A DNA stretch of 64,000 nt from Chytriomyces cf. hyalinus JEL632 (Eukaryota; Chytridiomycota; Chytridiomycetes; Chytridiales; Chytriomycetaceae). The notes beneath the pieces were generated by a model. It was given only the letters and a program-made list of their open reading frames with translations. It searched no databases and was not told the origin of the DNA. Below, one piece after another: positions 17,678 through 59,770 of this stretch; position 1 is the first letter of the stretch; every line of letters begins with the position of its first letter. Made by a program: the position numbers and the translations under genes. Location: NCBI GenBank assembly GCA_025435555.1, contig JAIWWG010000101.1, forward strand, positions 1 through 64,000, given 5' to 3'.

Positions 17678-18284
17678 TATCAGTCGGTGTTGGTTTTTTT
17701 TTTAGTTGGAGAAAAAAAGAAAGAAAGATTTGGGAAAGTTCCGTCACTCTCGAAAATGGAGAGTGAACACACACCATAGTCTTGCATGCACATTCCGACA
17801 TTCGGACTGATGTGTCCTCTGAAGTTGCAGCAGTTTGCAGTGTAGCGCCTCCAGTCCAATAAAACTGATTCCAGTCAACGAGGCTTTCGGACACAGGGAC
17901 AGACCTCCCAAACACAACGCTCATTTCGGCGAGGACGTGACCTTGCGCTGTTCTTATCTCCGGACATCAATGAATCCTCTCAACATGGGCCGAGGAAGCG
18001 TGCCGGTACAATGGACCACACGAGACCCGTCCAACATACCCTGCCATGAGAGACCAGTTCACTCATTAAGATAACTGGCCAATGCGCGAGGTAAAATATC
18101 GACATCGAACAGTAAGTAAGTCATGGTCCCAACTGGGCTTTAAGGGAAATGGGAATACAGTGTGCCTATAATTACATCAGCTGAAGAAGGTGGTTCCAGA
18201 AATTTTTTTCCTTTTTCCCTCCGCTTCCCAACTCCGAAGCCAACGACACCCACTACGCCCGTTACAAGACAGCCGGGGGACGTA
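17678..18284. other. Divergent intergenic region
   Basis: It lies between the start of ESF1 (minus) and the start of the next regulator (plus), so it is a divergent promoter region. No coding signal is convincing. An open frame continues upstream of 18285 to a GTG at 18162 but has no ATG. Confidence 0.5.
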
Positions 18285-19579
18285 ATGCATGCACAGGAAC
18301 CAACAGCTTCATCCGAGCAGTCCTCGAATGACGACCCGGACAACATCGCACTGACATTGCTGATGCTCGCGGCGGACTCTTTCAACGGCACCGACGCCCG
18401 GAAACCAGAGAAGCGAAGCTACAAAGCCGAGTCTGAAGATATGCATCTCGACGCAAAGCGAGTATGCGCCAGTGGCTCTGCCATCCCAGGATCACCCCAT
18501 ATGGATCACACTTACCCACCCACCCAGAACACTCCAAATCAGCCTCTCGACCACTCACCTCACACACGCAACGCATTCGAGCCACTCAACCAAACCAGCT
18601 CATCGGACGCGTTCCCCGTTCAAACTGTCCACCTCCATAAAGGAAACCGCACAGTCAGTTGCGCAAACTGCCACTCGGCTAAACGCAAATGTGATCGAAT
18701 CCGTCCATCTTGCACGGGATGTATTAAAAGATCGATTCAGTGCGAGTACTTGCTGGACCAGTTACGCGTCGCTCCAATCATCCACTCCTCAGTCCCTGGC
18801 TCGGGCCAACTGCGCCTACGCCAGGCCGCACCTCCTCTCGCTCAATCAAACATATGGAACTCTCCCGTCACTCCGCTCATGATGTCGCCCGAAACCATTT
18901 TTTCCCAAGACGGATCGGCAAACCCGGCGGCAGCAGAATTGGACAAACGAATGCACACGCAAAAGCCGAAAAAGGCCACTTCCGCCGCGATACCCCGTGT
19001 CAAGCAAGACACGCCTGATACCCTTATTGCTGGACCGGGTCAAGATCCTGTGGCCATGATTTTGGACCGTCTTGCAAAGTCCCGACATCCAAATCAGCCT
19101 GCAAAGAAACTCGCGTTGAAGCTACTTGCGGTGGTGGACTCTGAGACTGGGAATAAAGTATTTCACTGCATTTCTTGCAGGAAGAGGTACTTCACTTCGA
19201 GTGGATTACGGGTATGTTTTTTACGTTTTCCCCCATCTCCCTTTTTTTTTTTTTTTTTTATTATTATTCCCGCATCTCTTCAAAGATATTAGTTTGATCC
19301 ACATATTCATCCTAACCTGCGACATCCCCCCACAAACAGTACCATCTGAACGAAGAACACGACGAAAGTGACCAGCAAGCAACGTTTCCGGCTGGATACT
19401 ACTGGATGGACAAAAAGAAGGCATCCGGGGGAGACGTGGGTTTCACATGCCCGGTGGAAGGATGCGACAAGCGATACACTGCCCTTTCTGGGCTCAAATA
19501 CCATTCAGCGCATGCGCATTTGGAGTTGCGAGAATCGGCCAAAGCGGTTCTGGATCAGGAAGATGAGGGTTCAGAGTGA
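18285..19579 (+). CDS. Zn2Cys6 plus split C2H2 zinc-finger regulator
   Basis: Exons 18285-19211 and 19340-19579 give 388 residues. A canonical Zn2Cys6 cluster sits at ~126-153 (CANCHSAKRKC then CTGCIKRSIQC; spacing CX2CX6CX6CX2CX6C). The C-terminus has two C2H2 fingers, CISCRKRYFTSSGLRYH...H and CPVEGCDKRYTALSGLKYH...H. They are separated by a ~30-residue spacer with PAGYYW, resembling the split fingers of yeast Sfp1. The intron falls exactly between GLR and YHL, the same place as in the paralogue at 57259-59050. The product is presumably a nuclear DNA-binding transcription factor; targets are unknown. I chose the ATG at 18285 because the frame further upstream has only a GTG. Confidence 0.85.
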
Positions 19580-26988: not shown

Positions 26989-28578
26989 TCAGCAGAACAT
27001 CATCTGCGCAGAGCCAAGTTGATGCCACAGCGAAAGAATCGTGGCTTGATGGAGCCCCGCCGCTTGGTTGGCAAGGTCGTTCATCTGTTGCATGACCTGG
27101 GCGCAGAGCGGGTTAATCCCGCCAACTCCAGTGTTGAATCCAAACGGACTGCCAGAGTTGAAGTTTGGAAAGTTTGGCGGGGTTCCCATAAATCCAAACG
27201 GATTGTCAGAGCTGCTTGAGTCGGATCCCGGGTCCCCGCCGCTTTGGATAGCGTCAATCTGTTGTTGAACTTGTGCTTGCTGCTGGGGGCTGAGACCCAC
27301 CATTTGGCCCTGCAGAGCTTTGATCTGTGCTTGCTGGGCAACCGTGGTCGATGAGCCTCCAGCCTGGGCATTCATGATCGCAGCAATTTGCTTCTGGATC
27401 TGAGCTTGAATGGCGGGTGCGGCGCCAACCATCTGGGCCTGCAGTGCTTGAATTTGGGCCTGGTAGGCAGTAGCAGCCGAGGAACCTCCAGCCTGAGCAT
27501 TCATGATTGCTACAATTTGTCGCTGAATCTGTTCTTGAACGGCAGGGGTAGCACCGACTTGTTGAGCTTGAAGAGCTTGAATCTGTGCCTGGTAGGCAGT
27601 AGCAGCCGAGGAACCTCCAGCCTGAGCATTCATGATTGCTACAATTTGTCGCTGAATCTGTTCTTGAACGGCAGGGGTAGCACCGACTTGTTGAGCTTGA
27701 AGAGCTTGAATCTGTGCCTGGTACGCCGTAGCAGCCGACGAAACTCCAGCCTGCGCGTTCATGATCGCGGCAATCTGCTTCTGAATCTGTTCTTGAACGG
27801 CAGGGGTGGCACCAACCTGTTGAGCTTGCAGAGCTTGGATCTGGGCCTGGTACGCTGTAGCAGCCGAGGAAACTCCAGCCTGCGCGTTCATGATCGCGGC
27901 AATCTGCTTCTGAATCTGTTCTTGAACGGCAGGGGTGGCACCAACCTGTTGAGCTTGCAGAGCTTGGATCTGGGCCTGGTACGCTGTAGCAGCCGAGGAA
28001 ACTCCAGCCTGCGCGTTCATGATCGCGGCAATCTGCTTCTGAATCTGTTCTTGAACGGCAGGGGTAGCACCGACTTGTTGAGCTTGAAGAGCTTGAATCT
28101 GTGCCTGGTACGCCGTAGCAGCCGACGAAACTCCAGCCTGCGCGTTCATGATCGCGGCAATCTGCTTCTGAATCTGTTCTTGAACGGCAGGGGTAGCACC
28201 GACTTGTTGAGCTTGAAGAGCTTGAATCTGGGCCTGGTACGCCGTAGCAGCCGACGAAACTCCAGCCTGCGCATTCATGATAGCGGCAATTTGTTTCTGA
28301 ATCTGTTCTTGAACGGCAGGGGTAGCACCGACTTGTTGAGCTTGAAGAGCTTGAATCTGGGCCTGGTAGGCAGTAGCAGCCGAGGAAACTCCAACCTTCG
28401 CGTTCAATGCTGCACCAATCTGCTGCTGAATTTGAGCTTGAACCGCAGGATCAGCGCCGACTTGTTGAGCCTGAAGAGCTTGGACCTGCTCATTGGTTTG
28501 GCGTCGATCCACCGAGATGGGAGATTGGTGGGAAATGCTGACAGAAGCGAGCAAGCAGAGGAGAGTTGGGAAGAGCAT
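26989..28578 (-). CDS. Secreted protein of ten 43-residue repeats
   Basis: One exon encodes 529 residues. A signal peptide (MLFPTLLCLLASVSISH) is followed by ten tandem repeats of about 43 residues. Each has two Gln/Ala-rich amphipathic stretches, AYQAQIQALQAQQVGATPAV and QEQIQKQIAAIMNAQAG, joined by a VGATPAV or GVSSAAT turn. Repeats 2-6 are identical in protein, 7-8 differ at a few sites, and the first and last two are diverged. A Ser/Gly/Phe/Pro-rich linker follows, then a C-terminal segment with cysteines (INPLCAQVMQQMND, ending MMFC). The pattern suggests an extracellular helical fibre or scaffold. No family recognised. Confidence 0.85.
   Translation of the reverse strand: MLFPTLLCLLASVSISHQSPISVDRRQTNEQVQALQAQQVGADPAVQAQIQQQIGAALNAKVGVSSAATAYQAQIQALQAQQVGATPAVQEQIQKQIAAIMNAQAGVSSAATAYQAQIQALQAQQVGATPAVQEQIQKQIAAIMNAQAGVSSAATAYQAQIQALQAQQVGATPAVQEQIQKQIAAIMNAQAGVSSAATAYQAQIQALQAQQVGATPAVQEQIQKQIAAIMNAQAGVSSAATAYQAQIQALQAQQVGATPAVQEQIQKQIAAIMNAQAGVSSAATAYQAQIQALQAQQVGATPAVQEQIQRQIVAIMNAQAGGSSAATAYQAQIQALQAQQVGATPAVQEQIQRQIVAIMNAQAGGSSAATAYQAQIQALQAQMVGAAPAIQAQIQKQIAAIMNAQAGGSSTTVAQQAQIKALQGQMVGLSPQQQAQVQQQIDAIQSGGDPGSDSSSSDNPFGFMGTPPNFPNFNSGSPFGFNTGVGGINPLCAQVMQQMNDLANQAAGLHQATILSLWHQLGSAQMMFC
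27230..28488 (-). repeat. Tandem 129-bp coding repeat array
   Basis: Ten units of about 129 bp within the gene. The central units are nearly identical in nucleotide sequence and share the same synonymous changes in blocks, which points to recent unit duplication or gene conversion. The array is free of stops in an antisense frame too. Confidence 0.88.
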
Positions 28579-29033
28579 TTTTTGTGAAGTTTGATGGTTT
28601 TGTTGTGTTTTTTGTGGTGTTGGAAGCTTCTGAGGTCGCGGTTTAAGTAGTCGTTTAAGATGTGGGGTGGGAACAATTTTCTGGGCTTCGAAATTGGCGG
28701 ACCGTGTGAACAGTTAGTTCATGAAGAAACTTGCGCCAGAGCACATGAATCTTGTTTGTAAGCGTCGTTTTCATGGATTAGCCCCCCTTGTTCGGTTGCG
28801 TTATAGCGTCAGCGCTGCTGTTCTAGGTTGGAGCCGGTTTGGATTGAGAACGTGCGTTGAATATCCGCTTATATTCAGCAGGTATGCTTTTCATGGTTTA
28901 AAGGAAACCCGGGACCCGTGCATTTCATATTATAGCGTTTTTATTCGTTTTAAAACACGTTCTGAGTGACTTTGTAAGAGAAATTCCAAAAAAAAAAAAT
29001 AAAAGTTGGACCAAAAAAAAAAAAGTTATAGTT
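28579..29033. other. Intergenic spacer
   Basis: Upstream of the repeat-protein gene and downstream of the C2H2 gene. Short A runs lie at 28,988-29,022. No gene seen. Confidence 0.55.
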
Positions 29034-35597: not shown

Positions 35598-36596
35598 TCA
35601 AAGGTAATACTCGCACGGCTGCTTGCGGTCAACGCAGTGAGAACAGCTCGGCTTTTCTTTATCACATTTGATTTTCCGCAAGTGACAAGACTTGCAAGAA
35701 ACGGCCCGCACGGCTGCTCGAGGTTTCCCGGACCCCGTCGTCGTCGTCGTCGTCGTTGTCTTTTCATTTTTAATAACTCGAGTGTGTAGGATGGATGATG
35801 CAAATGGCAGTCCCGTTGTTGCTGTTGTTGTTGAGGATGATGATGCGTGTGCTGCAGTATGCAATGAGGTTGTTGTTGTTGTCGTGAGGGTGGTGTTTAT
35901 GGGTTCGGCAGAAAGCGCTGCTGTCGCTGTTGCTGTTGCGGGATAAGCGTTTGTCATTGGATGAGGTAGAGTTGGGCTTGGCCTGGGCGTTGGTTCCGCC
36001 GCAAAGCGGTGCGTTGAATGAAGCGAACCGAGCAGTGGATGAAGCGGGTCTATAGTGTCGTCCCCATGCACAATGTTTCGAATGGACATTGGGTTCCACG
36101 GCCGCCGTGGGTGTTGTTGTTGATGCAGAGATGACGAAGAAGAAGAAGCAATGCTGCCAGAAATGGGCTCAGAAGTCCGCCTCAAGCTGCTGCCCAGCAC
36201 AAGCGACGGAGCAGCAGTGCCAGGCGGCAAATACACACACTGGATGCCTCTATCCGAGCACCGCTGGCATGGGGCCCCCAAAGTGCACTTTCGGCGCCAT
36301 TCTCGGCATCCTTCGCAAGGGACAGGGCGCCCATAGGGTTTCGCTGTTGGCTGATTGAGTTTGTTGTTGCTTTTGGATGAGCTGCTGGAGGATGAGTGAT
36401 TCGAGCGGGATGAGCTGTTGAGTGTTGGTGGGGGTGGTGGCAGGTGATGTTGCTGGTGTTCGGGCATGCTGTTTTCGCTGGTTGTTGCGGATTCTGTGCT
36501 TGGAGCCCGGCGAGCCACGGCAGCATCGGAGGTTGCAGGGTTAGCGGGCATGGCATTGGAAGTCCAGACGGGTGAATCTTTTGGATGCAGGGACAT
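35598..36596 (-). CDS. Double Zn2Cys6 zinc-cluster protein A
   Basis: One exon, 332 residues. It has two zinc clusters. The first, at ~94-121, is CEGCREWRRKC then CQRCSDRGIQC (CX2CX6CX5CX2CX6C). The second, at ~302-329, is CKSCHLRKIKC then CSHCVDRKQPC and lies at the very C-terminus, three residues before the stop. Between them are Ser-, Thr- and His-rich low-complexity stretches and the motif NPMSIRNIVHGDD. The neighbour at 37342-38133 has the same layout and the motif VMSISNIVEPT, so the two are tandem paralogues. Zn2Cys6 clusters bind CGG-type DNA half-sites in fungi; no other regulatory domain is visible. A nuclear transcription factor is likely; targets unknown. Confidence 0.82.
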   Translation of the reverse strand: MSLHPKDSPVWTSNAMPANPATSDAAVARRAPSTESATTSENSMPEHQQHHLPPPPPTLNSSSRSNHSSSSSSSKSNNKLNQPTAKPYGRPVPCEGCREWRRKCTLGAPCQRCSDRGIQCVYLPPGTAAPSLVLGSSLRRTSEPISGSIASSSSSSLHQQQHPRRPWNPMSIRNIVHGDDTIDPLHPLLGSLHSTHRFAAEPTPRPSPTLPHPMTNAYPATATATAALSAEPINTTLTTTTTTSLHTAAHASSSSTTTATTGLPFASSILHTRVIKNEKTTTTTTTTGSGKPRAAVRAVSCKSCHLRKIKCDKEKPSCSHCVDRKQPCEYYL

Positions 36597-37341
36597 ATCT
36601 GCCTTGGGATGGATGGAAGGAAGGAGGGAGGGAGGGGAAGGAGGGAGTGTATATAAAAACTAAAAAATCCTTTTTTTTTTAAAAATGCGCGCGCGGGTTT
36701 AAATTGTTTTTGTTTTTTGTTTTTGATCAATTTCGGGGCTGACAAAAAATTGAACACAAGCTGCGTTTTCATTGGTTGAGGGATTGAGCTGAGCGAGCGA
36801 GCGGCAATGCGGCCTATCTTTAACCCCCACACACACACACACACACCCCCACATGCGGCGGCACAAACTGCGGCATGTGCGTCAGGCATGTGGATTGCGA
36901 TGCGTGGGTGTGCAAATGGAATGCGGCGACGGCGGGCATACGATACGCGCAATCTCTCAACAATCTCCCCATCTCCATCCATCTCCATCTCCATCTCCAC
37001 TCTGTGTTGCCGAATCAAAATTTTTTGTTTTTTTTCATTTGTCATCGGCAAAATTCGAAATAGCATTATTATTCCTGAATGAATAATTTACACTCACTCA
37101 CTCACTCACTCCCACCGACATCACAATCGTCATTCCATTTGCACAATTGCCGAAATAAATAAAAGAAAAAAGAAGCGCCGAGAACCCCCCCCCCACTCCC
37201 TAACCCCCATTTCTTCCTTCATTTCCTTCCAGCCAATGAGATTTCACTTGAATTTCAACCAATCAGATTCAAGAGATGTCAAACACACCCAAACCACCCA
37301 AACCACGCCTTTGCATTTATTTATTCAAAAAACACGTACTT
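36597..37341. other. Intergenic region with microsatellites
   Basis: A (CA)n run lies near 36,828-36,845, CCATCT repeats near 36,970-37,000, and an (ACTC)n run at 37,091-37,112. No gene supported. Confidence 0.55.
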
Positions 37342-38133
37342 TTAATGCATATACACGCACTCAATTCCGCGGTTTGCGCAATCGGAACAAGCCGGCTTGG
37401 TCATGTCACATTTTGTTTTCCGTCCATGACAAAACACACACGCTTTTCCTCTCCTTGACAATGACTTTGGATTTGCAGTCACAGTTTGTTCCTGTCCATG
37501 CTGCATATATCCTGTTGCTACTAGGCCACCCCCCTTGCCGTGATGACATGACGCATGCCGTTGGGCGACACGGTTTCGAACACCCAAACAAGCATCTTGC
37601 GTGGGTTCAACAATGTTTGAAATCGACATGACAGAATCTCGGTTGCTGCTTTGAAACGATCCAGCAGCAGCAGCAGAGCCCAAACCAGGCATCTGCAACA
37701 ACAACTGTATCTGTGGTGGCGGCGGTGGCGGCGACTCTGAATCATGTGCCGCGCTTACAGACGACAAAGTCGGCGACCTTCTCCCAAGTTTCCGCTCATA
37801 CCTCAACGGGATATACGTGCATACGGAGCCTCGTTCGATACACCGGTTACAACTGGGTTTCGTAAGGTTGCATTTCCGCCGCCATTCTCGACACGCTTCA
37901 CAGGGAAGGGGACGGCGGTATGTCTGATGAGTGTCTTTGGTGCATGCATTTGATGTGATACCAGTGCTTGGATGTATGGCGTGTGTGGGGGTAACTGCAG
38001 TTGCTGTTGCTGAGAGAGTGGTTGGTGACGCAACGGCGGACAAGGGCATGGTTGTAAGCATTGGTTTCACGTCCTCCTGATCATGACTGTTACTGTCGTT
38101 GGAGTTGTTGGAGTGGGTATGGTGCGTGGGCAT
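37342..38133 (-). CDS. Double Zn2Cys6 zinc-cluster protein B
   Basis: One exon, 263 residues. The first zinc cluster at ~78-106 is CEACREWRRKC then CNRCIERGSVC. The second at ~232-260 is CVFCHGRKTKC then CSDCANRGIEC and again ends at the C-terminus (VYMH). Both use CX2CX6CX6CX2CX6C. The shared CE(A/G)CREWRRKC start and MSI(S/R)NIV motif mark it as a paralogue of the gene at 35598-36596. The middle has a poly-Pro run and low-complexity Ala/Ser. Same strand, about 745 bp apart. No activation or middle-homology domain is visible, unlike typical fungal zinc-cluster factors. Confidence 0.82.
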   Translation of the reverse strand: MPTHHTHSNNSNDSNSHDQEDVKPMLTTMPLSAVASPTTLSATATAVTPTHAIHPSTGITSNACTKDTHQTYRRPLPCEACREWRRKCNLTKPSCNRCIERGSVCTYIPLRYERKLGRRSPTLSSVSAAHDSESPPPPPPQIQLLLQMPGLGSAAAAGSFQSSNRDSVMSISNIVEPTQDACLGVRNRVAQRHASCHHGKGGGLVATGYMQHGQEQTVTANPKSLSRRGKACVFCHGRKTKCDMTKPACSDCANRGIECVYMH

Positions 38134-43420: not shown

Positions 43421-44254
43421 TCACATCTTGAAAGCGTGTTTAATGCGGCTCAACTGCGGAGTGAATTGCACCTCATTTGTCTCCACATCCGACTGCACTT
43501 CCTGCCTGTGACGCAATGCCTCTGGAATCGTCGCTGATTTATTCCATGCAATGTGACCCGCTTTCTTCATCCCCTTGAGCATCAGTTCGTTCAGGATGTC
43601 CGCATTCCCAGCATAATGCAATTTTCGAGCTCGATTTACGCACCCTGCGACAAAATCCAGTGCTTCCCTCCCGCGGCACGCCCAATACCGTTTGAAACTG
43701 GATTCGACGAGATATTGAAGGAGTGAAGCCACTGTTGTTCCGTCATATTCTACGTATCCTGGGTGGGTTTTTGGACCGCCGAATGGCTTCGGCGACGCAG
43801 GTTGGAACGCAAGTCCAGCAGTGATATATATAAGCCGACTTGGGGATACTTTGGAATTTGAAAAGAAGGACTGGATGGCTGAAGACGACTTTTTTATAAT
43901 GGAAGGTCTGCTCTTCTCGGATTCGCAAATTGTGACGGTCAGGCTGCCGGATGGAACATCATCGGTCATGAGAAGGATGCTTTGCTGATGCGTGTATATC
44001 ATTATGCGGTCGACATTAACAGCAGGCTGGATTGGGGGTTGGGCCATTTCTGAGACCAAGTCGGTTGTCAAAGTCTGCATTACTAGCGGAGAGCTGTTTG
44101 AAAGACGGGGATGACTGGAGAGCTCGCCTAACAACTTACCGCTTCTGGGATGGTGGTTTGCAGTCATATTTTGGAAAGATGGCAGGGGGTGCCCTGTGAG
44201 CAGAAAGTCCCCGTTAAATGCGAAGCAATGGGAGGTTACGACGACTTCAACCAC
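43421..44254 (-). CDS. Unknown duplicated-family protein, copy 1
   Basis: A 277-residue frame whose core (from GSLTVTICESEKSRP through LIYITAGLAFQPASPKPFGG, LLQYLVESSFKRYWACRGRE and NELMLKGMKKAGHIAWN) is nearly identical to the frame at 45333-46208. The N-terminal ~70 residues differ and may be intron or another exon, so the true start is uncertain. The core is a mixed alpha/beta-looking domain with three cysteines. I do not recognise the family. Flanking exons may exist, since frame-switching protein-like segments lie just upstream on the same strand. Confidence 0.5.
   Translation of the reverse strand: MVEVVVTSHCFAFNGDFLLTGHPLPSFQNMTANHHPRSGKLLGELSSHPRLSNSSPLVMQTLTTDLVSEMAQPPIQPAVNVDRIMIYTHQQSILLMTDDVPSGSLTVTICESEKSRPSIIKKSSSAIQSFFSNSKVSPSRLIYITAGLAFQPASPKPFGGPKTHPGYVEYDGTTVASLLQYLVESSFKRYWACRGREALDFVAGCVNRARKLHYAGNADILNELMLKGMKKAGHIAWNKSATIPEALRHRQEVQSDVETNEVQFTPQLSRIKHAFKM
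43551..43960. repeat. Near-identical 410-bp duplication, unit 1
   Basis: Matches 45538-45947 with no gaps and about three base differences that I could find, in the same orientation. Similarity falls off sharply on both sides. Confidence 0.88.
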
Positions 44255-45332
44255 GGCATAGACTCTTCTATACCTTTGTCACTCTGCCCAGTCGTCGTGC
44301 GAGTCGGTCAAGCGTTGTTGTTCACAGGGCAGATTTTGAATATCAAAGTCATTGGTAAAATGTGTATTTCGAGTGTTGGAACCGTGTGAACCAAAACCGC
44401 GCTTTCTGTGTTACTGCACCACCCATAGTACTGAATCTTCGCATGCGTGATATGCGGTTGTGGTTGCCATTCTCCCTGGGCGCACTTACCTTCTAAAATA
44501 CGCGTCCACCTGCTGAGGATGTCTATTTATCCACAAAGGACCTCTGTGTGCATCGAGGACGGAAAGCAGCATGCTCTTCAAAAGCGAATTCATTCGAAAG
44601 TTCAAGAGTTTCACGAACCAATACCTTGATCGCCTCCCGCTATCAAGATCATAAACCATGCCACGTCTGTCGACTGACATCAGCCACGTGAACTGGCCTG
44701 ATCCTGTCGCTGCCACCCTATGAGAGTCAATATATTGATAAGGTAGCCTGCGATAACGCTGGGGTAGAATCTTTTCCGATTCGCCACGGGTTTATGGCTT
44801 TCTAACAATGCGGTGGTGCAATTATGTACTTACAGATTCATTGCCGATACTGGCTGACTGCATGCTAAGCTGACATATATCTCGACTCCAAGACCCATAG
44901 AGCAGGACCCCCAGGACTTTATCGAATCCGAACTGGTGTTTAAAAGCCCGTCGAACGATATGTCGTATATCCATCATCAATATGCGTGAGAGAACTCGCA
45001 CATTGCAGATTCGAAGCATAGAGCTGCGAAGTGAACCTAAAATTGGCAATGAGCTTTCACATTTACCGCCCGCCCATTCAAGGCGCGATCGAAGATAACG
45101 CTTTGTCCTGGACATGCATCCATCGCACGCTGATTTGACCTGGCGCGTCAATTCGATTGGACGCTCTGTCCGTCGTATTATGGTATAATTGGATAATAGC
45201 AGCCACTGACAAGAACTCTGCCGCACTGTCGTCAGTCATTGACAGTTACCTCCAAAGAATTTCTTGCGGCATTTTCGGACTCATGATTCTCATGTGCACA
45301 GCAGGTGTGCCGCAACTTTAGCGCCAACATAT
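44255..45332. other. Possible coding remnants between family copies
   Basis: The minus strand shows protein-like pieces in different frames, for example from 45,239 downward (MTDDSAAEFLSVAAIIQLYH) and near 45,000 (THIDDGYTTYRSTGF). An 8-kDa frame lies at 44486-44716. They could be short exons of one gene or a decayed gene. I could not build a model. Confidence 0.3.
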
Positions 45333-46208
45333 TCAGGGAAGCATGCAAAGTGCGGCTATCACTGGACGAATTCTCTCTGATTTCATGAAAGAGAAGTGGA
45401 ACGCGAAGATGGAATGTGGAAGTCGACTTCGGGGAGAATCATCCGAAGAGAATCGCCCCTCATCTGTCTCCACATCCGACTGCACTTCCTTCTTGTGACG
45501 CAATGTCTCTGGAATCGTCGCCAAAGTATTCCACCCAATGTGACCCGCTTTCTTCATCCCCTTGAGCATCAGTTCGTTCAGGATGTCCGCATTCCCAGCA
45601 TAATGCAATTTTCGAGCTCGATTTACGCACCCAGCGACAAAATCCAGTGCTTCCCTCCCGCGGCACGCCCAATACCGTTTGAAACTGGATTCGACGAGAT
45701 ATTGAAGGAGTGAAGCCACTGTTGTTCCGTCATATTCTACGTATCCTGGGTGGGTTTTTGGACCGCCGAATGGCTTCGGCGACGCAGGTTGGAACGCAAG
45801 TCCAGCAGTGATATATATAAGCCGACTTGGGGATACTTTGGAATTTGAAAAGAAGGACTGGATGGCTGAAGACGACTTTTTTATAATGGAAGGTCTGCTC
45901 TTCTCGGATTCGCAAATTGAGACGGTCAGGCTGCCGCATGGAACATCGTGGGAGAATCGAAGTACGCTCTGAGGACGGGTGTAGATTATAAAGCGGTCAG
46001 CTTGGAAGGCGGATTTGGTTGCGAATTTTGACGCATCTGAACGTAATAGTATCGACAGTGGATCCAACATGTGAACGTTAGTGCAATGGCGATGGCGATT
46101 CTTGAGTATCGCGATGAAAACGTACCGCTCGTAGTGGGGATGTCTGCAGCCATGGTTTTCATGGATGTTGGAGTGCTTGCGGCTAAAGACTGGGATAAAT
46201 GCGAGCAA
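45333..46208 (-). CDS. Unknown duplicated-family protein, copy 2
   Basis: A 291-residue frame sharing the core of copy 1 (SLTVSICESEKSRPSIIKK to NELMLKGMKKAGHIGWN). Upstream, another frame contains a likely membrane span (SRYSRIAIAIALTFTCWIHC at ~46,050-46,140), so a spliced product with a transmembrane segment before the core is possible. The C-terminal end differs from copy 1 and may be read-through into non-coding sequence. Function unknown. Confidence 0.5.
   Translation of the reverse strand: MLAFIPVFSRKHSNIHENHGCRHPHYERYVFIAILKNRHRHCTNVHMLDPLSILLRSDASKFATKSAFQADRFIIYTRPQSVLRFSHDVPCGSLTVSICESEKSRPSIIKKSSSAIQSFFSNSKVSPSRLIYITAGLAFQPASPKPFGGPKTHPGYVEYDGTTVASLLQYLVESSFKRYWACRGREALDFVAGCVNRARKLHYAGNADILNELMLKGMKKAGHIGWNTLATIPETLRHKKEVQSDVETDEGRFSSDDSPRSRLPHSIFAFHFSFMKSERIRPVIAALCMLP
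45538..45947. repeat. Near-identical 410-bp duplication, unit 2
   Basis: Partner of 43551-43960. The neighbouring coding sequence of the two paralogues is clearly more diverged than this block. Confidence 0.88.
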
Positions 46209-46936
46209 GTGTCGGTGAGTCTCTTCGTAACCTTTACATAAGATATCGTTTTCAAGTTGGGGAGCGTGACGAACTTGTTAGAGCCGCCTCTGGAAGGGGC
46301 GATCCGTGTCCATTTTGCACTTGAGTTTGCTGGTGTAAAATCTTTGCACATGATTTGGTTCCAAAAAACTTTGCAAAGAAAAGGTGGTTGACACGTTTTC
46401 CACGCGCATTTGCGATTCGATATTCGCGCAACTTTCCTTGTTGGCCCATCCTCCCTCCGTAGATGTGTGCCGGAGCATATGCGTCAGCTGCCGAAGCCAT
46501 CCTTCTTATCGTATGGCGGCAGTTTGATTCAGTTCGTCCTCTCAAAATTCAAAACTGCGTGGGAACCAGGACGACAGAGGATCGGAATATACATATATTG
46601 TTACTAAATGTTTTCTGGCTATTAAGGTGTGGGAACTCCATGCGAAAATAAAGATACGCGCATTGTTTTCTGTTCGAAAAACCTCAAGATTTCGAAGCAA
46701 ACGGCGACATAAAGTGTTCACGTTTGATCCTTGCGAAGCATCCAACCAAATGCAGGTGGTCCATAAGCAGTAGAAGGGGTAGTTTGTTTAATTTTGAAAA
46801 AAGGGGGGCAATCTGATAAAGCGGAAGAAGGACAGCCATTGAACTACTAAGACCACGAACGTGGCTTTTTAGGATTACGACTTGAAGAAAAGGAAACGAA
46901 AAACAGATCTGCGAGAAGGAAAATAACCAGTGTTAC
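46209..46936. other. Unassigned region between WSC unit and family copy 2
   Basis: Several overlapping minus-strand frames (46252-46545, 46278-46478, 45986-46351) look partly protein-like but switch frame. They may be exons linking the WSC unit to the family core. No model is supportable. Confidence 0.3.
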
Positions 46937-49110: not shown

Positions 49111-51791
49111 ATAAAGCCGATGTCGGGCGGAGCGTCCATTCGTCAAACATTGAAGCGGGGAGGGTGGATGCGTCATGGGACTGGATGAGCTTGCATTTCA
49201 CGTGCTTGGAGTCTGTGTAGATGGTGGGGAAGAAGAGAATGGAATTATTAAAACAATAAACCCATCACCAGGGGGTCTTCCTTCACACGCACCTCCCAAA
49301 ACAAGTTTTGTCGAAAAAGAAAATCGCGCCTCATATGTCTCAACGGGTTCGAGACACTCAGAGTCAAGCGGCACGACAATCTGCTTCAAATTGGACAACT
49401 GCCAAATGCAAAATAAACTCTTGTCAGTTTAACAAGGAGGACAATCTTGTTAAGGTTGAAATACCTCAACAAGTACTGCAACACTGCCATCCTTCCAACT
49501 CCCACCAGATCGCCGCCAATTTTGCACGCTCCCTTCAAACTGAACAGGTACTGGGATATATTGAGCGCATTCGAGAGTTGCCGGCAACCCGTGTTCAACT
49601 GTGCAAGTGACTGTCCCGTTGAAGAAACGAACCCATCGAGCAACTTCAATTTTCGGGAGTTTATAGCTCGATATATAGGTTTTCAAAATTTCTAAATGGA
49701 CTGCACTGGTATCTGATGTGATGGGGGGTATCGCGGCAGTCTCTTTTTTGATTTTGTTGATAAGCTGCACGTGTTCCTGACTTGTGTTGGAAAAAAAGGT
49801 CAACCTTCAAAGAATGGATGGGCAAGTGAACAAACAATATACCTGTTGAGATACTCCAAACCACCATTAACCCCTTTCACCGCTGCAAAAGCAGCGCCCG
49901 CCTGCGCAAGGACCCCCAACTCCAGCAAACAACGCAACGTGCTCACCTCCAACCCCAAAAACACAGACAACAGCGCTCGCGTGAGGTTAAATAAACTGAA
50001 ACAAGTCCGCGAGATTTCGGCACACTGTTCGATGCAAGTTGAAGTGAAAGATCGGGTTTCGGTGGTTTGGAATACAAGCGATTGGATGGTTGCAGTGAGC
50101 TTGAAAGCTTGAATGCAGCCTTTGGCGAATACGGCCATGTGCATGTCGGGTTCCAAACGACAGATTTTATGCAATTGTCTGGATGAGAAAAAAAAGACTT
50201 TCAGCAAAACAAAAAAAAGGGGGGGAGCACCCGAGGTGGTAACTTTTTCGCACCTGCCAAATCCATCCAACATCTCAATACATGCACGAAATTCGAGCGC
50301 CGTCAAAAGATCTTGAGCATCGCGTGTGACTGAATTGAACGTTTCGCAAACAAAATCCATATTCGAGAGTGTTGTCATGGAAGTGGGGTTCATCAATTCG
50401 CTTGGTGCTTGGCCATGGTCCATGGGATGGTCAAAGTCCTTTTTTGGGGATAATCTCAAGTGAGTTGGCGGGGGGGGGGGGGGGGGGGGGGGATGAAGTG
50501 ATGGACGACAATCCTCACCTCCATCTTTGGGAAACATTGGGGATATTTTGCATTCAGGAAATACACTTGCCGGAATGTGTAGTTGGGCATGGATTCAAGG
50601 ATTATAGGGTGAGAAAACCCGGCATTGAAAATGAGGATCAAGTTTGCAATGTCTGAGTTTTTTGGAAATCAAAAGGTTGGGTTGGTCAGCCTTTCACTGT
50701 TTGTCATTGATATATTTGTCAGTGTCTCACGTGTTAAGCTGTCCAGGTTGACTTCTTGGGGTAAATAACGGTTATCAAGCTTCAACAGTCGATCCTTGTA
50801 TTCCTCTGTTTTTTAAAAGTGAGTAGGCAAATTGGGTGAATTCGGCGAAAGAAAAAAAAAGAAAAAGAAATCCACACTACCCACGTATCCAGGATGATTC
50901 ATGCCCAAGTCTCGAAAGCATACTAAAATCTTGGGTAAATCGCCGGGAAAGCGTTTCAAATTTCGATACAAGTGCATAATGACGCGTTTCAGGGAATCCA
51001 GGTCAACGAGTCGAAACAGTCTGCGCAACACATGAGTTCATTTTAAACACCATCTGATATGGATCATTTTACCCAAGGAGATCATATCCCAAGTGCCGCA
51101 TGTTTAGATTTACTGCATCAAGAGCCAGGAGCATGGTTGTTAATTGCATGACATTGAGAATGAGTGGAAAATGCGTTGCGATGCGTTTGATGTTTGTGAT
51201 TGCGGCAACGCGGACCGAAAACATTTCGTCGTTGAACATGTCTGGGTTTTTTTTTTTTTTTTGGCTTAGTCATAAAATCGACAATATGGACAATGAAATA
51301 GTCAGCGCACCAACAAGACAGTCCAGAGCTGAAGAGGCAAATGCAGGTGACTTTGTTGCAAGTGTGATTGTGCAGAGCGAGTCTGTAAAAGTAAATTCGG
51401 CATCGATGTAAATAAATAAATAAACAAATGGAAAATAAATAGATTACCGACTGCCGCCTTTCGCACAAGTTCGAATTCGTCTTCGCAGCCATGCACAAAG
51501 GCTCCGCATGCAGCTGTTGGCATGCGCTGCTGTTTCGGGTTTTTAGGTTCGGACTTTGTCAGAGACTGTTTCAGCATTTCCATGCCCCCTTTCGACCAAT
51601 CTGAATGCGCCAGTTTATAGAATGCCTTTGCGCGATCGACTGGATTTGCGCTTGCGATTGCCGCGATGGAGCAGTGGGCAAAGTCCATCTGTTTACGAGG
51701 TGTTTACAAAGTGAAAATAAATATAAATAAATAAATAAATAAATAAATAGGGAACAATATTCACCCCCAAATCACGTCCGAATCTGTCCAT
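49019..51791 (-). CDS. INTS4: Integrator complex subunit 4 homologue
   Basis: Multi-exon minus-strand gene starting MDRFGRDLG. Exon-encoded segments in order: MDFAHCSIAAIASANPVDRA, then TAACGAFVHGCEDEFELVRK, matching the CGALVHGLEDEFyeVR of INTS4. DMFNDEMFSVRVAAITNIKR then LNMRHLGYDLLG are HEAT repeats. Next are LYRNLKRFPGDLPKILVCFR, ANLILIFNAGFSHP and NYTFRQVYFLNAKYP, again as in INTS4. A helical region follows (QLHKICRLEPDMHMAVFAKG), and the C-terminal beta part ends YPYWNPLAQ. INTS4 scaffolds the snRNA- and mRNA-cleaving module of Integrator in animals. One intron contains a run of about 24 G. I rate the family assignment good but exon boundaries approximate. Confidence 0.75.
50469..50492. 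repeat. Poly-G tract in INTS4 intron
   Basis: About 24 consecutive G on the plus strand (C on the coding strand), an extreme homopolymer for this sequence. Its length may be uncertain in the assembly. Confidence 0.9.
51714..51750. repeat. (AATA)n microsatellite
   Basis: About eight AATA units within the first intron of INTS4. Confidence 0.85.
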
Positions 51792-51980
51792 TTCAGGTGC
51801 GTATTTATCGCCATACTTTCTTTCCGATTTGTCTCACTTTGGCCTCTGCAAAACATGCTTCTTCCGCTCTCTCAACGTGTTGCAAAAGGAAAAACTCGGT
51901 TCCAATTCACAGATAATTTTTTGCAAACAAAACGTGAAAATTTTGCCAAAGAGCACAACCACAACTCTACTTCGAATCGA

Positions 51981-54900
51981 ATGGACCCAGAAGCACCCGA
52001 CAAAGAACTTGAGGCAGCGCAAACGATCCTGATGATGATGGAGGTCGGGGCGGAGAGAGAGCCCGGCAACGACGGGCCCTCCGGCACCGGCGGTGAGTCA
52101 TCCGGGTCGGCGCTTGGATTGCGGCCACGCGTGAAGCCGTGCGAGGGTTGCAAGCGGAGGAGGAAGCGGTGTGATGCGGTGCGACCCGTCTGCGGGACGT
52201 GTGCCAAGCTGCGAGTGTCGTGCGAGTGGACTCCTGAGCATTCTTCCGGATTGGTGTCCACTATTGCCGCACACGGTGAGTATTTTCCGGACACAGTTTG
52301 CTTGATTCTCTTTTTTTCGCATTTCCCCGCTTTCGGCTCTTTGTACCCGTTTCTGACGTGGGATGCCCGCTTTCGATCTGTGTCTGCAAATTCCCTTCTC
52401 CATCTTCACCTGCCTTCGAAAAATTTTTGCTGTCTGAAAAAGAAAAAACGCCTCCTTTTTTCAGTAATACTTTTCTTCTTCATTTTCCACCCCCTTCTAT
52501 CTTGATGTCTTTCTGTTTTTCCCTTTTTTCTTCCTCTGATTTTCGCTCTTTTTTTCCCTTTTTTTTCCCTTTTTTTTCCCTTTTTTTTCCTTCTTTTTTT
52601 TTCATTTATTTCACCCACTCACTCACTCACTCACTCACTTACACTCACAACCAGACTCAGCGCAACGCGCGGAATCACCATGTGAATCATGCCACCTGGA
52701 TAAAACCCATTGCGATCAAACATTCCCAGTCTGCACCCCATGTCTAGGCAAACCCAACCAATGCAAGTATCCGACGCCAACCATATCTGAAAACACGACC
52801 CCATCTTCCCCAAGTCCTTCCGCAACCAGCAGCCTCGCTGTAGCACCTCAAACAGACAAACCAACAAACAACATTCAGCCAACCCAAATCCAGCAGCAAA
52901 TCACTCAGCACCGGACAAAACCAAGCTGCTCAACTTGTCGAACATTTAACCGCGAATGCAACGCGGCGCGTCCTTCCTGCTCATCCTGTATCGCGCACAA
53001 CACTCCGGGAACCTGTGAATACCGTGGCAGAAGGCGCAAGGATCCGCGGTTGATGAGTTGTGCACGGTGTCAGCGTCTTCATTTAAAATGCGACAATGCA
53101 AGACCCTCCTGTGGAGAGTGTTCGAAAAGAGGTCGGGACGGGGCGGCCGGATGTCAATATGCAAGACACGATCCTGTTGCCACCATTGGGAGTGGTGGTC
53201 CGTCTCTCATCTCAATGGAAACAGAAGAGGCAAAAATAGAAAGGAAAATGAGCTTTGGAAGCGATGTTTCACCGCAGTCCTTGGAGTCGGGCAGTGTCGT
53301 TGCAATTGAGGAAGGTTTTCGCAACGTTCAGATGGACGTTGCAGAACCAGAGCAGGAAAATGAGCAAAGTACATCCAGTTCAAGTGCATGCGCCATGGAA
53401 GCGCATACGTCTGCTATGGACTCACAAGTCCAGCGACGAAACGACGAGCAATTGGAAGGACATGATCACCAGCCTCAGTATCCGAGGTACAATGACGCAG
53501 GTCCGAAAAAAGCAGGCCCTGTTGGAGAGTCAGGAGATGCATTGATTGCTGGATCTCGAGCTGTGATTCAGTCACTTTTCACGGACGCACCTGCGGCACA
53601 ACAACCGACTGAAAAGAGCTTACACACTGATGGTGGAGGAGGTAGAAAAACACTCCGCGCAATATCCTCAGGAGAAGACAGTGCATCCAACTCGGAAGGC
53701 AACGGTGGGGATGACAACAACGCTGGAAAGGAAGGAAATGCCAGCGGCGACGATTCATCCTCATCTCAAGAGCGGCATCATCGACACAACCAACACACAT
53801 TGCACGTTCAACGCCAGCAGAACAAAGAACAAGCTCAGCGTGTGCAAGAACGGCGAGATAAAAAGCACGAGTTGGAGCAACATCACCAAGTCATGATTCA
53901 ACAACGCGTCGAGCAACAAATGACGGATCAGCAAGGAAAGGAAGTTGCTGACGAGTCTCCTTCTAATGGGCAGCAAGTGCAAAATCCGTTCCATCACCAT
54001 CACCATCACTACTATCATCATCACCATTATTCGAATGATGGATCCATCGAACAAGATCAGCCGGAGCAGCAGCAGCATCTAACTCAACAATACATGAACG
54101 AAACCTCTCCCTCAACGGTGTTGGCTTCACCTCGAGTGGAATCATATCCTGTCCATCCGATCTACCATCCGACCCAGGAAGCCCAACAACAATATCAACA
54201 ACGTCAACACCAACAATATCAAGAACAGCTGCAATACCAGCATCAACAACAACAGCGGAATCAACAATTTCAACATCCGCAGGCGCTTTCACAATATGGA
54301 AGCCATTATTACCAACAACAATACGACCATGGGCAACTTCAACAACAGCAGCAACAGCAGAATCATCAACATCAACAGATGGCGCAGCAGCAGCGTCAGT
54401 ATCAACAACAACCTTCAACCGACATGCAGCAATCTCAGCAACAACAACAGGGTCAACATCATCACCACCATGTCTACTACCACCAAGTAGCCTCTGCTCC
54501 GTTGGGAAGATTCACATCATCTGCGCCATCAGCACCAACTACTACGCAATCAGTTCCTTCTGCAGCATCCCAAAAAACTGTTTCAAAGCCAACGAAATCA
54601 GTTGCATCAGCGGCGAAACCACCAGTCGCTCAACCCGCCGCAGCAAACTTGGCCTCAAAAACGCGTATCGCAAGCTGCTGGACTTGCTACAAAAAGAAGG
54701 TGAAATGTGACCGTTCTCGGCCGCGATGTGGTTTCTGTCACGCGCGGGGACTCGCATGTGAATACCCAAGTCCGAAAGCGGGTGGTGGTGGTGGTGGTGA
54801 TGAAATCTTGGGTGCTGCCGAAATTATTACACCCAGTGTAACGATTGCTCATCATCAGTCGGCTGAAAAATCGAGGGTATCCACTGATTTGCGAGGTCAG

Positions 54901-55459
54901 CCGCCTGCGCCTGGTGAGAGAGAGAGATGCTTATTTCCGTTGTTTTTTTATTGGTTGATTTTTGATTTCTAATTTTATTTTTTTTTCCCCCCACAAATTT
55001 GTGTTCCAATCAACAGCTGCTGCTGCCGCTCCTTCATCCACACCCGCACATCCAACCATCGACACCAAACCGATTGCCGACCCTAAACCATCGAAAAACT
55101 CATTCTCAAATCTCTTGCCTACTGGATCCGTGCCGTCTCCTGCTGAAGGTAGCACTTTAAGCGGAAGCTTTGTCCCATCTCCGTCCCACCACCTACGAGC
55201 ATTTTCGAACGTGCTCGAAGAAGGATGGACACCGAGTCCCGTTCCAGATGGTGATTTCTCGACACCGAAACATGTACATCAGCAGCAGCGTGGCGGTAGT
55301 AGCAGTAGCAATAGGAATTCAAGCACTCGTGTAGGTGCAGCAGCAGCAGTTGATGCCAAGGGTGTGGCCATGAATGTCACGTATGCGGAAGTGTTGAAGG
55401 CTGGGTTGTTGGGTGGGGGATTGCAGTCGAGAAGTCGGAGTTTGGGAAAAAATGAGTGA
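51981..55459 (+). CDS. Five-cluster Zn2Cys6 protein
   Basis: Exons 51981-52275, 52655-54913 and 55017-55459 give 998 residues; both joins keep phase. Five separate Zn2Cys6 clusters are present. C1 ~54-81: CEGCKRRRKRC, CGTCAKLRVSC. C2 ~108-135: CESCHLDKTHC, CTPCLGKPNQC. C3 ~190-219: CSTCRTFNREC, CSSC, with 8 residues before the last Cys. C4 ~234-265: CARCQRLHLKC, CGEC, with 10 before the last Cys. C5 ~773-800: CWTCYKKKVKC, CGFCHARGLAC. The first four are packed in ~210 residues. C5 is separated by ~500 residues rich in Gln and His, including His runs at ~445-460, typical of activation or condensate-forming regions. It is presumably a DNA-binding regulator. C2 partly lacks the basic residues that contact DNA. 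The first intron is 379 nt, long for this genome. An ATG at 51855 could extend the N-terminus. Confidence 0.85.
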
Positions 55460-56707: not shown

Positions 56708-57258
56708 TCTTTGCTTCGGAATTTCGTTGGGGAAAGGACCCAAAAAACCAAGCATTCCGAAAATTGAAGGTACCCCCCCCTGATAAGAAACCCTGTTTTT
56801 ATTTCACGCATCAAATGTTATCCCGTTGCTCACTCCGACGGCGGTCACAGAGGAACCTGACTGAATGTCGGCATCGGCAGAGTGTTTGATGAGAGAGAGT
56901 GCGTGTTTGAGAGTGAGAAGACATTGTGCCTCCGCTTGTTGGGCCAGTGCTCGAAGTCAGTCTTTGTCAGCATTGTAAGCGTCGGTTCTGTCGCTTCAGG
57001 CAGAATGTCTCTCGTTGTTTGTTTGCACCCGCGTCAAGAATAACACAAGTCTTAAAAAGGGATTCGATCGATTGCCGCATTTGAAATTCCCACAACTTCC
57101 CGCAAAATAGCCTCGTGTTCTCTCGGCCCGCCCGTTAACAGCAGCTCGCACTTTAAGCCCGGCAGGACCATGGTAGCAGCAGTGGCAGCACCAAATCCAG
57201 CAATAAAGACAGCAAAAAAGAAAGAAAACAAAAGTGAAAAAAAGAGAAAAAAACAAAA
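56708..57258. other. Intergenic region
   Basis: Divergent spacer between the small membrane protein and the zinc-finger gene. A-rich just before 57259. No gene seen. Confidence 0.5.
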
Positions 57259-59050
57259 ATGCAATATTTGTTTCAGAATTTGTCGCCGTTTCCCAAGCAA
57301 CAACCACCGCACAAGAGTCAGCCGCAAGACTGGATGCAACCAACACATTCACTGTCCGCAGAGTACGGAAGCAGCTCAGACCAGGAGCGGGAGGCCGTCG
57401 AGGCCATGCTCAACTTTCACCGCTGCTCCCAGTCCCCACCACATCGCATCAGTCACGGCGAGGCCGGCGATTCCTACCCCGAGGCCCGGAGTGCAGCCCC
57501 AATATCAGCGGGGATGCCGCTGGGAACAAATGGGCCCGCCGAAGTAGATCGGCTGCCCGACGGCGTCGCTGCTGGTTCACTCAAGCGCTTACGCCCCTGC
57601 GACTTGTGCAGGGCCATGAGGAAACGCTGCGAGTTTGAGTCTGGCGAAAATTGCATTCGCTGCACCGAGCGGGGCGAAACTTGTGCGTATGCGGATGAGA
57701 TGCGCAAAAAGTCGAGTCTCTCGGGTGGCACAGCCGAAATGTCTTCATCCTACGACATTCCCACTGTCTCTATGCCTGATGTAAGAGCCATGTCGGACTC
57801 TCCGTACATGCAGCAAGCCATTCTGGCTTCTCTCGACGAGTCTCCGCGCATTGCAAAGACACGCAGGCATGCCGCCTGCACAGCCTGCCACACCAAAAAG
57901 ATAAAATGCGATATGCTCAAGCCATCATGTACGGGATGCTATGAGCGATCCAAAGTGTGCATCTATCCGATTCCGCCTCAAAATGGCGACGGTGAACCTC
58001 GAAAGGCTCACTTTGCCCTTCCAAAAGGCGCATCGCCCGTTATTCCCTCCCAACCGATACCAGCAGAAGCTTCAAATACTGCCAAGGCGGAAGTGTCGGG
58101 ACAATCTTCAGCATCGATCAATCCTTCCTCGTCTGTCGCACTGCGAAATCCTTCACTGGGGCCTGATTCTGGGGACGAATCCATTCATTCAGCAGACAAT
58201 GGATACTATTCAACCGATTCAGCTGCTTCAAGGCTAAATCAAGTTGCGCAGGACCAGTCGCAAATTGACAGCACTTCCGCAATTTCATCTGCAGCACTTG
58301 CCATCGAAAATTTATCGAAACCACAGCTCCCTTCACTTCCTGCAGCCTCCTCCGCTTCTCCGCTTTCATACGATCGCAACCTGTCAAATCCAAGCGACGT
58401 CCACAAGCCCGCACATGAATTTAAGAAATCAGCCAATCAATTCCCACTCTTTCACCCTTCCTTCTTTGAACGCGACCCAAATTTTGTATCCCGTTTCAAA
58501 TCCAAAAAGCAAATCAAGCAGGCTGCCATCACTGCCGCAGCGCTTGCATCGAATCCAGGCAGTCTGTCACTTGCCGACATTGTCCTCGACAAACTACCGC
58601 GAGTCAAACCGGGCATTCGAAAACGAATCAAGTGTGGAAAGTTGTGGATTTTGGACCCGGAGACTGCAGAAAAGGTGTATTTTTGCCCGATTTGTCGCAA
58701 AGATTACACCACTGCAAATGGGCTGAAGGTGATTTTTTCAAGATTTTATGTTTGAATGTTTCCAGACAGCTGATGGCTGCTTTGAAATTTCTTAGTATCA
58801 CTTGAGCTTGCATACGGATTTTCACAACATGCCGCCCGGGTATTATTGGAGCAAAGAATCGGCAACTGAAGATTTGACCAAAGTCTTCCAATGCACTGTA
58901 GAGCCATGTCGAAAAGCATACAGCACACTCGCGGGACTCAAATATCACATGGGAAAAGGCAAACATGGATCTGCGGAGGGCAGGCAAAGTGGGGATGAGG
59001 CGGGAGCAAGCAGTTCGGAAGATGAAGAAGATTTGAACCCGGATGAGTGA
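57259..59050 (+). CDS. Double Zn2Cys6 plus split C2H2 regulator
   Basis: Exons 57259-58728 and 58796-59050 give 574 residues. Two zinc clusters: ~114-142 (CDLCRAMRKRC, CIRCTERGETC; CX2CX6CX7CX2CX6C) and ~207-234 (CTACHTKKIKC, CTGCYERSKVC). Near the C-terminus are two C2H2 fingers, CPICRKDYTTANGLKYH..H and CTVEPCRKAYSTLAGLKYH...H, separated by a spacer with PPGYYW. The intron splits GLK and YHL exactly as in the paralogue at 18285-19579, and both share sequence just before the fingers (LDPETAEKVYFC versus VDSETGNKVFHC). This copy has one more zinc cluster than its paralogue. It ends with an acidic tail (SEDEEDLNPDE). Likely transcription factor; targets unknown. Confidence 0.87.
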
Positions 59051-59770
59051 AAAGTGTTTGGAAGAAGGCTCTTTTTCTTTTTTTGGGTTTATTTGGGGGG
59101 TATTCGGTGTTTTTTCTTCTAATTTTGGACACGGCTTTCTTGTTTGATTGACGCGCTTTTATGTATTGTTTTTTTTTCGCAGTTTCCCCTTTTTCACTCG
59201 GAGCTTTTTTATCACTTTCGACTCTTTCTGTCCTGACTTATTCTTCCGACCTGTTTCTGTTTTGACTCATTCGATTGATGGCTGTATATATTTTTAGTCG
59301 CTGTTCTTTAACTCACTCCTTCCAAATAAAGTAACCTTTTCGCAGTCTCAACAAAAAGAAAAGAAAAAAGAAAAAAGAAGAAGGAGGAGAGAGGGTGTTG
59401 AGAACTGGGGACTGTTTGTAGCGAGTGTCGGGTAACGTTCACATGATGCATCAAATGACCTTGTTACGCCCAATGTTTATGCCCTTACAGCTGTGTTAGT
59501 AACGCGTAAGGAATCGTGGGTCATGCCGTGATCCCATCGGCTGTTTTCCGGTGATTGTCATTCAGCGAACGGGCGCAGTCACTTGCTCAACCGCGAGCAT
59601 ATGATTTAAACAAGCCACCCGAAAAAAAGCGGACAAAAAAAAACACTTTGAAATATGGTTGGTGCCCTGATCCCAAAGAAACCAAGGCAACGCTAACCCA
59701 AGCAACCCCCCACCCCATTCCACAGCCCTGCTGCAACATACACAGTCTTGCCGAATGCTCTGACGAGGCA
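59051..59770. other. Intergenic region upstream of aminopeptidase
   Basis: T-rich 3' flank, then a spacer. The aminopeptidase frame stays open back to 59555 but has no ATG before 59771. No separate gene seen. Confidence 0.5.

Follow-up and report, generated by a model that had tools for sequence, protein, structure and literature searches.

The window analyzed here is a 64,000-nucleotide stretch of the Chytriomyces cf. hyalinus JEL632 genome (assembly GCA_025435555.1, contig JAIWWG010000101.1, positions 1 to 64,000 of the forward strand). It contains a gene at 51981–55459 on the forward strand, and its three predicted exons, when joined, give an open frame of 998 amino acid residues with exon phases in agreement. 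An original prediction, made from the sequence alone, had placed at this locus one protein with five Zn2Cys6 clusters read in a single spliced frame. Its coordinates were correct, and the predicted protein indeed carries five stretches matching the Pfam family PF00172, each of which lies above the family cut-off when taken alone. The features of the gene are listed below with the source of evidence in parentheses, where ORF is open reading frame, AF2 is AlphaFold2, and HDU78_009540 is a protein of Chytriomyces hyalinus.

51981..52275, + strand: exon 1, with the start codon, the N terminus, and cluster 1 (ORF and splice check)
52140-52223, + strand: cluster 1, last loop X6, 33.9 bits (PF00172)
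52276..52654, + strand: predicted intron 1, GTGAGT..CCAG, 379 bp, rich in pyrimidines and containing a CACT repeat (ORF and splice check)
52655..54913, + strand: exon 2, with clusters 2–5 and the Gln/His-rich stretch in one open frame (ORF reading)
52681..52764, + strand: cluster 2, last loop X6, 30.0 bits (PF00172)
52927..53016, + strand: cluster 3, last loop X8, 28.3 bits (PF00172; AF2 model)
53059..53154, + strand: cluster 4, last loop X10, 31.0 bits (PF00172; AF2 model; alignment with HDU78_009540)
53155..54675, + strand: linker of 507 residues, rich in Gln, His, and Ser, with 94 Gln and 39 His (composition; part compared with HDU78_009540)
54676..54759, + strand: cluster 5, last loop X6, 39.8 bits (PF00172)
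54914..55016, + strand: predicted intron 2, 103 bp, GTGAGA..ACAG (splice check)
55017..55459, + strand: exon 3, the C-terminal tail up to the stop, lying in a 226-column alignment with HDU78_009540 (ORF and alignment)

The whole 998-residue protein gave five PF00172 stretches in hmmscan (E 8e-28, 96.7 bits). Tested alone, the single clusters scored from 28.3 to 39.8 bits, all above the curated PF00172 cut-off of 21, and cluster 5 had the highest score of the five. Clusters 2–4, whose scores had been singled out beforehand as decisive, reached 30.0, 28.3, and 31.0 bits, respectively. All five clusters keep the six cysteines in the arrangement C-X2-C-X6-C-X6-C-X2-C-Xn-C, where n is 6, 6, 8, 10, and 6, so that the stretched last loops noted earlier in cluster 3 (8 residues) and cluster 4 (10 residues) were found as described. 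The clusters start at residues 54, 108, 190, 234, and 773 and are separated by 26, 54, 14, and 507 residues; the description of four clusters within the first 265 residues, followed by a Gln/His-rich stretch of approximately 500 residues, was likewise accurate. Chance does not explain five above-cut-off matches in a single frame. Judging from their sequences, the clusters probably bind zinc and probably bind DNA, and the Gln/His-rich linker is a candidate activation region. A Pfam scan of the protein at E values up to 1 matched PF00172 only, and thus neither PF04082 (Fungal_trans) nor a C2H2 finger was found. A simple heptad scan in 28-residue windows showed no clear coiled coil, the dimerization helix that follows the cluster in Gal4-type homodimers, with at most five of eight a/d positions occupied by Leu, Ile, Val, or Met (windows starting at 271–276).

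Clusters 2–5 all lie inside an uninterrupted frame of 810 codons (52540–54972) that does not require splicing, and cluster 1 alone depends on splicing for its membership of the protein. The first ATG in the exon 2 frame is at 53053, just upstream of cluster 4; therefore, clusters 2 and 3 require an upstream exon, barring a non-ATG start. The donor of intron 1 at 52276 scores 7 of 8, and only 24 of the 3713 GT dinucleotides on the same strand score 7 or more. The reading frame is kept by four of the 26 donor–acceptor pairs in the intron 1 interval, two of which use this donor. An alternative first exon within intron 1 could be drawn from two ATG–donor choices (four with both acceptors), with donors scoring 3 of 8. 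The residues flanking intron 2 are continuous in HDU78_009540. Intron 1 is predicted to be spliced as listed, and the five-cluster single protein was confirmed as a predicted gene model. Upstream of the gene, CGG or CCG occurs 10 times in 51400–51980, an uncontrolled raw count. Rfam and tRNA scans of the 64-kb window gave no matches.

A single relative was found. A search with residues 40–290 (E ≤ 1e-3) of approximately 5.8 billion proteins, in which the 1428 candidates had lengths of about 549–1746 residues, returned C. hyalinus HDU78_009540 (690 residues) as the sole relative at E ≤ 0.001. Its model begins at a Met before cluster 4 that is equivalent to 53053. It matches 298 of 370 columns over residues 232–601, cluster 4 being letter-for-letter identical, and the C-terminal alignment of 226 columns is 79% identical. 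The model reads through the Gln-rich part in the +1 frame and then omits cluster 5; Pfam detected one PF00172 cluster only, and cluster 4 is the only one of the five that the cross-species comparison covers. When the differences were back-translated in the window frame, with one ambiguous codon excluded, 17 fell at third, seven at second, and four at first codon positions. First-position changes are under-counted, since most of them are silent in the +1 frame, and the fair contrast is therefore 17 versus 7 (one-sided 0.03, a small test). Both gaps in the Gln-rich alignment are whole codons, and the +1 frame contains a stop in the window sequence itself. From these comparisons, the public gene model of HDU78_009540 appears to be wrong, in that it starts inside the array, follows another frame in the Gln-rich part, and omits cluster 5. 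A search with residues 1–281 at E ≤ 10 returned one of 536 candidates, the window's own protein.

To place the gene within its genome, the contigs (37.8 Mb, 242 contigs) were searched with the PF00172 profile at E ≤ 0.001, which gave at least 79 matches. Thirty of the 79 form 15 pairs, each pair sharing one open frame and lying above the cut-off: four on contig C186, two each on C4 and C79, and one each on C111, C221, C45, C162, C177, C173, and C166. A pattern search confirmed these shared frames and gave 18 two-cluster frames in all, adding a window gene at 57 kb (hereafter the 57-kb gene), one on C175, and one at C177:717 kb. With a custom profile at a 12-bit cut, 11 of the 47 distinct matching frames had two clusters, one of them (L024) doubtful. 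The figure used here is 15, from the Pfam search. More than two clusters in one frame were seen in the five-cluster gene only, among frames read that leave out 11 stretches with 12 of the 79 matches and in which clusters split over exons are missed. Given 15 other two-cluster frames, paired clusters are frequent in this genome, and among the frames read the five-cluster gene stands at the far end of a local tendency. The statement that fungal factors have one cluster, rarely two, therefore stood in part. Five clusters are unusual, two being the maximum met in literature of partial coverage; "rarely two" does not fit these 15 frames, the three two-cluster genes in the window, or a four-cluster protein of the MMETSP collection described below.

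No second copy of the five-cluster gene was present among the 17 genome matches listed; besides the gene's own two, these are clusters at 31–47% identity. The gene is single-copy in this genome. Its nearest paralogues, on C162 and C45, align with clusters 3–4 as a tandem unit at 40–42% identity. Clusters 1–2 are likewise matched as a unit by the paired gene on C221, at 34% identity. A segment of C186 near 220 kb is a copy of window 56.3–59.3 kb, with 82% DNA identity over the 57-kb gene. Upstream in this paralogous segment, the five-cluster gene was sought and gave no match; only a 50-base match to window 3005–3051 was found.

Two of the two-cluster genes in the window are neighbors at 35598–38133 (− strand), where the second Zn2Cys6 cluster stops four codons before the stop; similar two-cluster genes are found on C111 and, as an adjacent pair, on C186. 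The 57-kb gene (57238–59053, + strand) has two passing PF00172 stretches and, by eye, C2H2-like motifs, and translated window 58796–59053 is 97.7% identical to the C186 copy over 86 residues. A one-cluster ORF at 18144–19292 (+ strand) has a terminal C..C motif resembling that of the 57-kb gene, and from this similarity the two may be related. The tightest pair seen, with two Zn2Cys6 clusters only five residues apart, is at C166:619000–625500 (L056), near 3157–3256 on the − strand. Elsewhere in the window, two ORFs of 285 and 314 residues at 43421–46277 (− strand) have a long near-identical stretch in common, perhaps from a recent tandem duplication, and no Pfam match at E 0.01. A 574-residue ORF at 26989–28713 (− strand) consists mostly of near-identical tandem repeats of approximately 43 residues (YQAQIQALQAQQVGATPAVQEQIQ...).

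The origin of the array was examined by comparing cluster cores. Compared with one another, the five clusters (ten pairs) had a mean score of 58.5, as against 69.2 (standard deviation 17.5) for all pairs of 56 distinct genome cores, a mean that is inflated by recent paralogues. Four of the five clusters belong to the set of 56, as does an overlapping artifact (C166); cores failing a [KRE]C filter were excluded. Cluster 2 is among those excluded, but it did enter the within-protein pairs. The best match of each of the five clusters is a cluster in another gene. Recent internal duplication was rejected as a likely origin, the five clusters being no closer to one another than clusters of this genome are in general. 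The comparison speaks for old divergence or module fusion, which are indistinguishable with cluster alignments of 28–32 residues, whose resolution is low.

Residues at two positions defined from Gal4 were assigned by counting. At the position of Gal4 Lys18, counted from the second Cys, clusters 1–5 have Arg, Lys, Asn, His, and Lys, i.e., Lys or Arg in three of five, and the preceding residues are Arg, Asp, Phe, Leu, and Lys. Cluster 5 thus carries Lys at the equivalents of both Gal4 Lys17 and Gal4 Lys18. His is the most frequent residue at the Lys18 position in this genome (19 of the 56 distinct cores), which indicates that the residue of cluster 4 is a normal subtype here. An AF2 model of clusters 3–4, obtained with an alignment built from zinc clusters and so partly predisposed to this fold, lines up with Gal4-type folds.

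We give about an even chance to the explanation that this gene from a Chytriomyces-like chytrid encodes a nuclear transcription factor with five Zn2Cys6 modules in one chain, an array gripping an extended or composite site, Gln-rich activation, and a distant cluster 5. Clusters 1–4, with their modules 26, 54, and 14 residues apart, would form an N-terminal array that jointly grips such a site, and a single chain would thereby do what Gal4-type factors achieve by dimerizing. The Gln/His-rich stretch would be a flexible region for activation, with cluster 5 touching a second site or reinforcing binding. Such a protein may read clustered CGG sites, and reading of several sites combined with activation would be expected of it. 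Several observations weigh against this explanation. Clusters 3 and 4 lack Lys or Arg at the Lys18 position and cluster 2 has Asp before it, so that CGG contact need not be made by all five clusters. The alignment behind the AF2 model was composed of zinc clusters, so the modeled fold is partly built in, and AF2 of clusters 2–4 without an alignment was useless (mean predicted local distance difference test score 41.5). Intron 1, at 379 bp, is long relative to the inferred intron of approximately 70 bp in the 57-kb gene, the sole comparison. The HDU78_009540 model lacks clusters 1–3 and 5 and therefore supports the downstream frame, not the total of five.

These positions also bear on another explanation, which is possible though we would not favor it: DNA is read by clusters 1 and 5 alone, perhaps together with cluster 2, and clusters 3 and 4 are zinc-folded for contact with protein, non-CGG sites, or RNA. 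The protein would then act at one or two sites like an ordinary factor, with passenger clusters. The residues at and before the Lys18 position and the stretched last loops of clusters 3 and 4 are consistent with it. However, His at this position is normal in the genome, and C. hyalinus has the identical cluster 4. Furthermore, Pho7 has Asn at the Lys18 position, and yet two of its sites contain a required CGG (PMC5559640). The locus could also hold two genes, namely, a short one-cluster gene in which exon 1 runs on into the intron (174 residues) and a second gene, carrying clusters 4 and 5, whose start is at 53053. The protein collection holds a predicted 174-residue protein of just this kind, exon 1 read on into intron 1 with one cluster, and the annotated C. 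hyalinus model begins at the Met equivalent to 53053. This arrangement would leave the in-frame, above-cut-off clusters 2 and 3 in untranslated sequence; with the exon phases in agreement and the donor among the 24 of 3713 noted above, we regard it as improbable. Least probable, and in our view quite unlikely, is neutral domain accretion in a pair-rich lineage, in which a working factor gained clusters by fusion with no functional gain. It would fit the 15 paired frames, the single copy with no match upstream in the C186 segment, and the low similarity among the five clusters (58.5 versus 69.2), as expected from fusing different modules; against it, all five retain six Cys and exceed the cut-off, although the cross-species comparison extends to cluster 4 only.

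Proteins with several clusters were sought elsewhere with a synthetic 12-cluster query at E ≤ 1e-8, and one of 7695 candidates matched, the MMETSP protein P0003 (405 residues, seven member sequences) from a marine microbial eukaryote transcriptome set. It has four PF00172 stretches with last loops of 12, 6, 10, and 8 residues. When rescored locally with this query, the five-cluster protein gave 1.8e-15 and only two two-cluster frames reached 1e-8 or below. The query is blind to most two-cluster proteins, to lengths outside about 308–978 residues (the five-cluster protein included), and to proteins with few shared 5-letter words, and the search therefore gives no estimate of how rare proteins with three or more clusters are. 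P0003 resembles the five-cluster protein in its cluster array and stretched last loops and differs in an X5 middle loop in all four clusters and in having no Gln-rich stretch. This result suggests that another eukaryote transcribes cluster arrays and that stretched last loops are a recurrent feature. A broader explanation, which we offer tentatively, is a single-chain multivalent Zn2Cys6 reader: four-to-five-cluster arrays would have evolved in chytrids and separately in another eukaryote to read long composite sites without dimerizing, in parallel with poly-C2H2 proteins.

The protein shares the six-Cys cluster, its spacing, and its Pfam score with Gal4-type factors (Gal4, HAP1/CYP1, Ppr1, Put3, Leu3, and Pho7), and it differs from them in having five clusters rather than one and no PF04082, a domain that is frequent but not universal in such factors. 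Among solved structures, HAP1/CYP1 gives the best sequence match to clusters 4 and 5, the two searched, and in the alignment HAP1 has an X8 last loop, a precedent for that of cluster 3; an X11 last loop is reported in Cordyceps militaris. Two-cluster proteins are described in ascomycetes and basidiomycetes: Tolypocladium CCG_02279 and Cordyceps CCM_00582, placed among DUF3468 proteins, Pleurotus PoZCP55, with septin domains, and an Alternaria factor with a transmembrane domain (PMC6471507, PMC7295025, PMC10305253). These have more than one Zn2Cys6 per chain, but two, not five, as do the paired-cluster genes of the same genome (on C45, C162, C79, C177, C173, C166, C186, C111, and C221, and at window 35.6–38.1 and 57.2–59 kb). 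A literature search of partial coverage found no Zn2Cys6 protein with more than two clusters and, going by titles, none on chytrid multi-cluster proteins. In many ascomycetes, Zn2Cys6 proteins form the largest family of regulators; in Aspergillus nidulans, 331 of 520 transcription factors are reported to belong to it, with 332 Zn2Cys6 domains in those 331 (PMC8396895). A review puts chytrids close to the family's starting phase, at which clusters are as yet few, and, as far as accessible, does not describe strings of clusters (PMC5415576). The Zn2Cys6 domain itself is known; the number per chain is apparently new to us, within this partial coverage of the literature.

The logic of Zn2Cys6 factors is usually presented as one cluster per chain plus dimerization. 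The five-cluster chain suggests that some fungi assemble regulators from strings of zinc-cluster modules and, lying in a genome rich in pairs, provides a direct way to ask whether zinc clusters string together like C2H2 fingers. Poly-C2H2 proteins, taken as a working analogy only, likewise repeat small zinc modules in one chain; however, they have another zinc fold, and their linkers are short and uniform, whereas those of the five-cluster protein span 26, 54, 14, and 507 residues.
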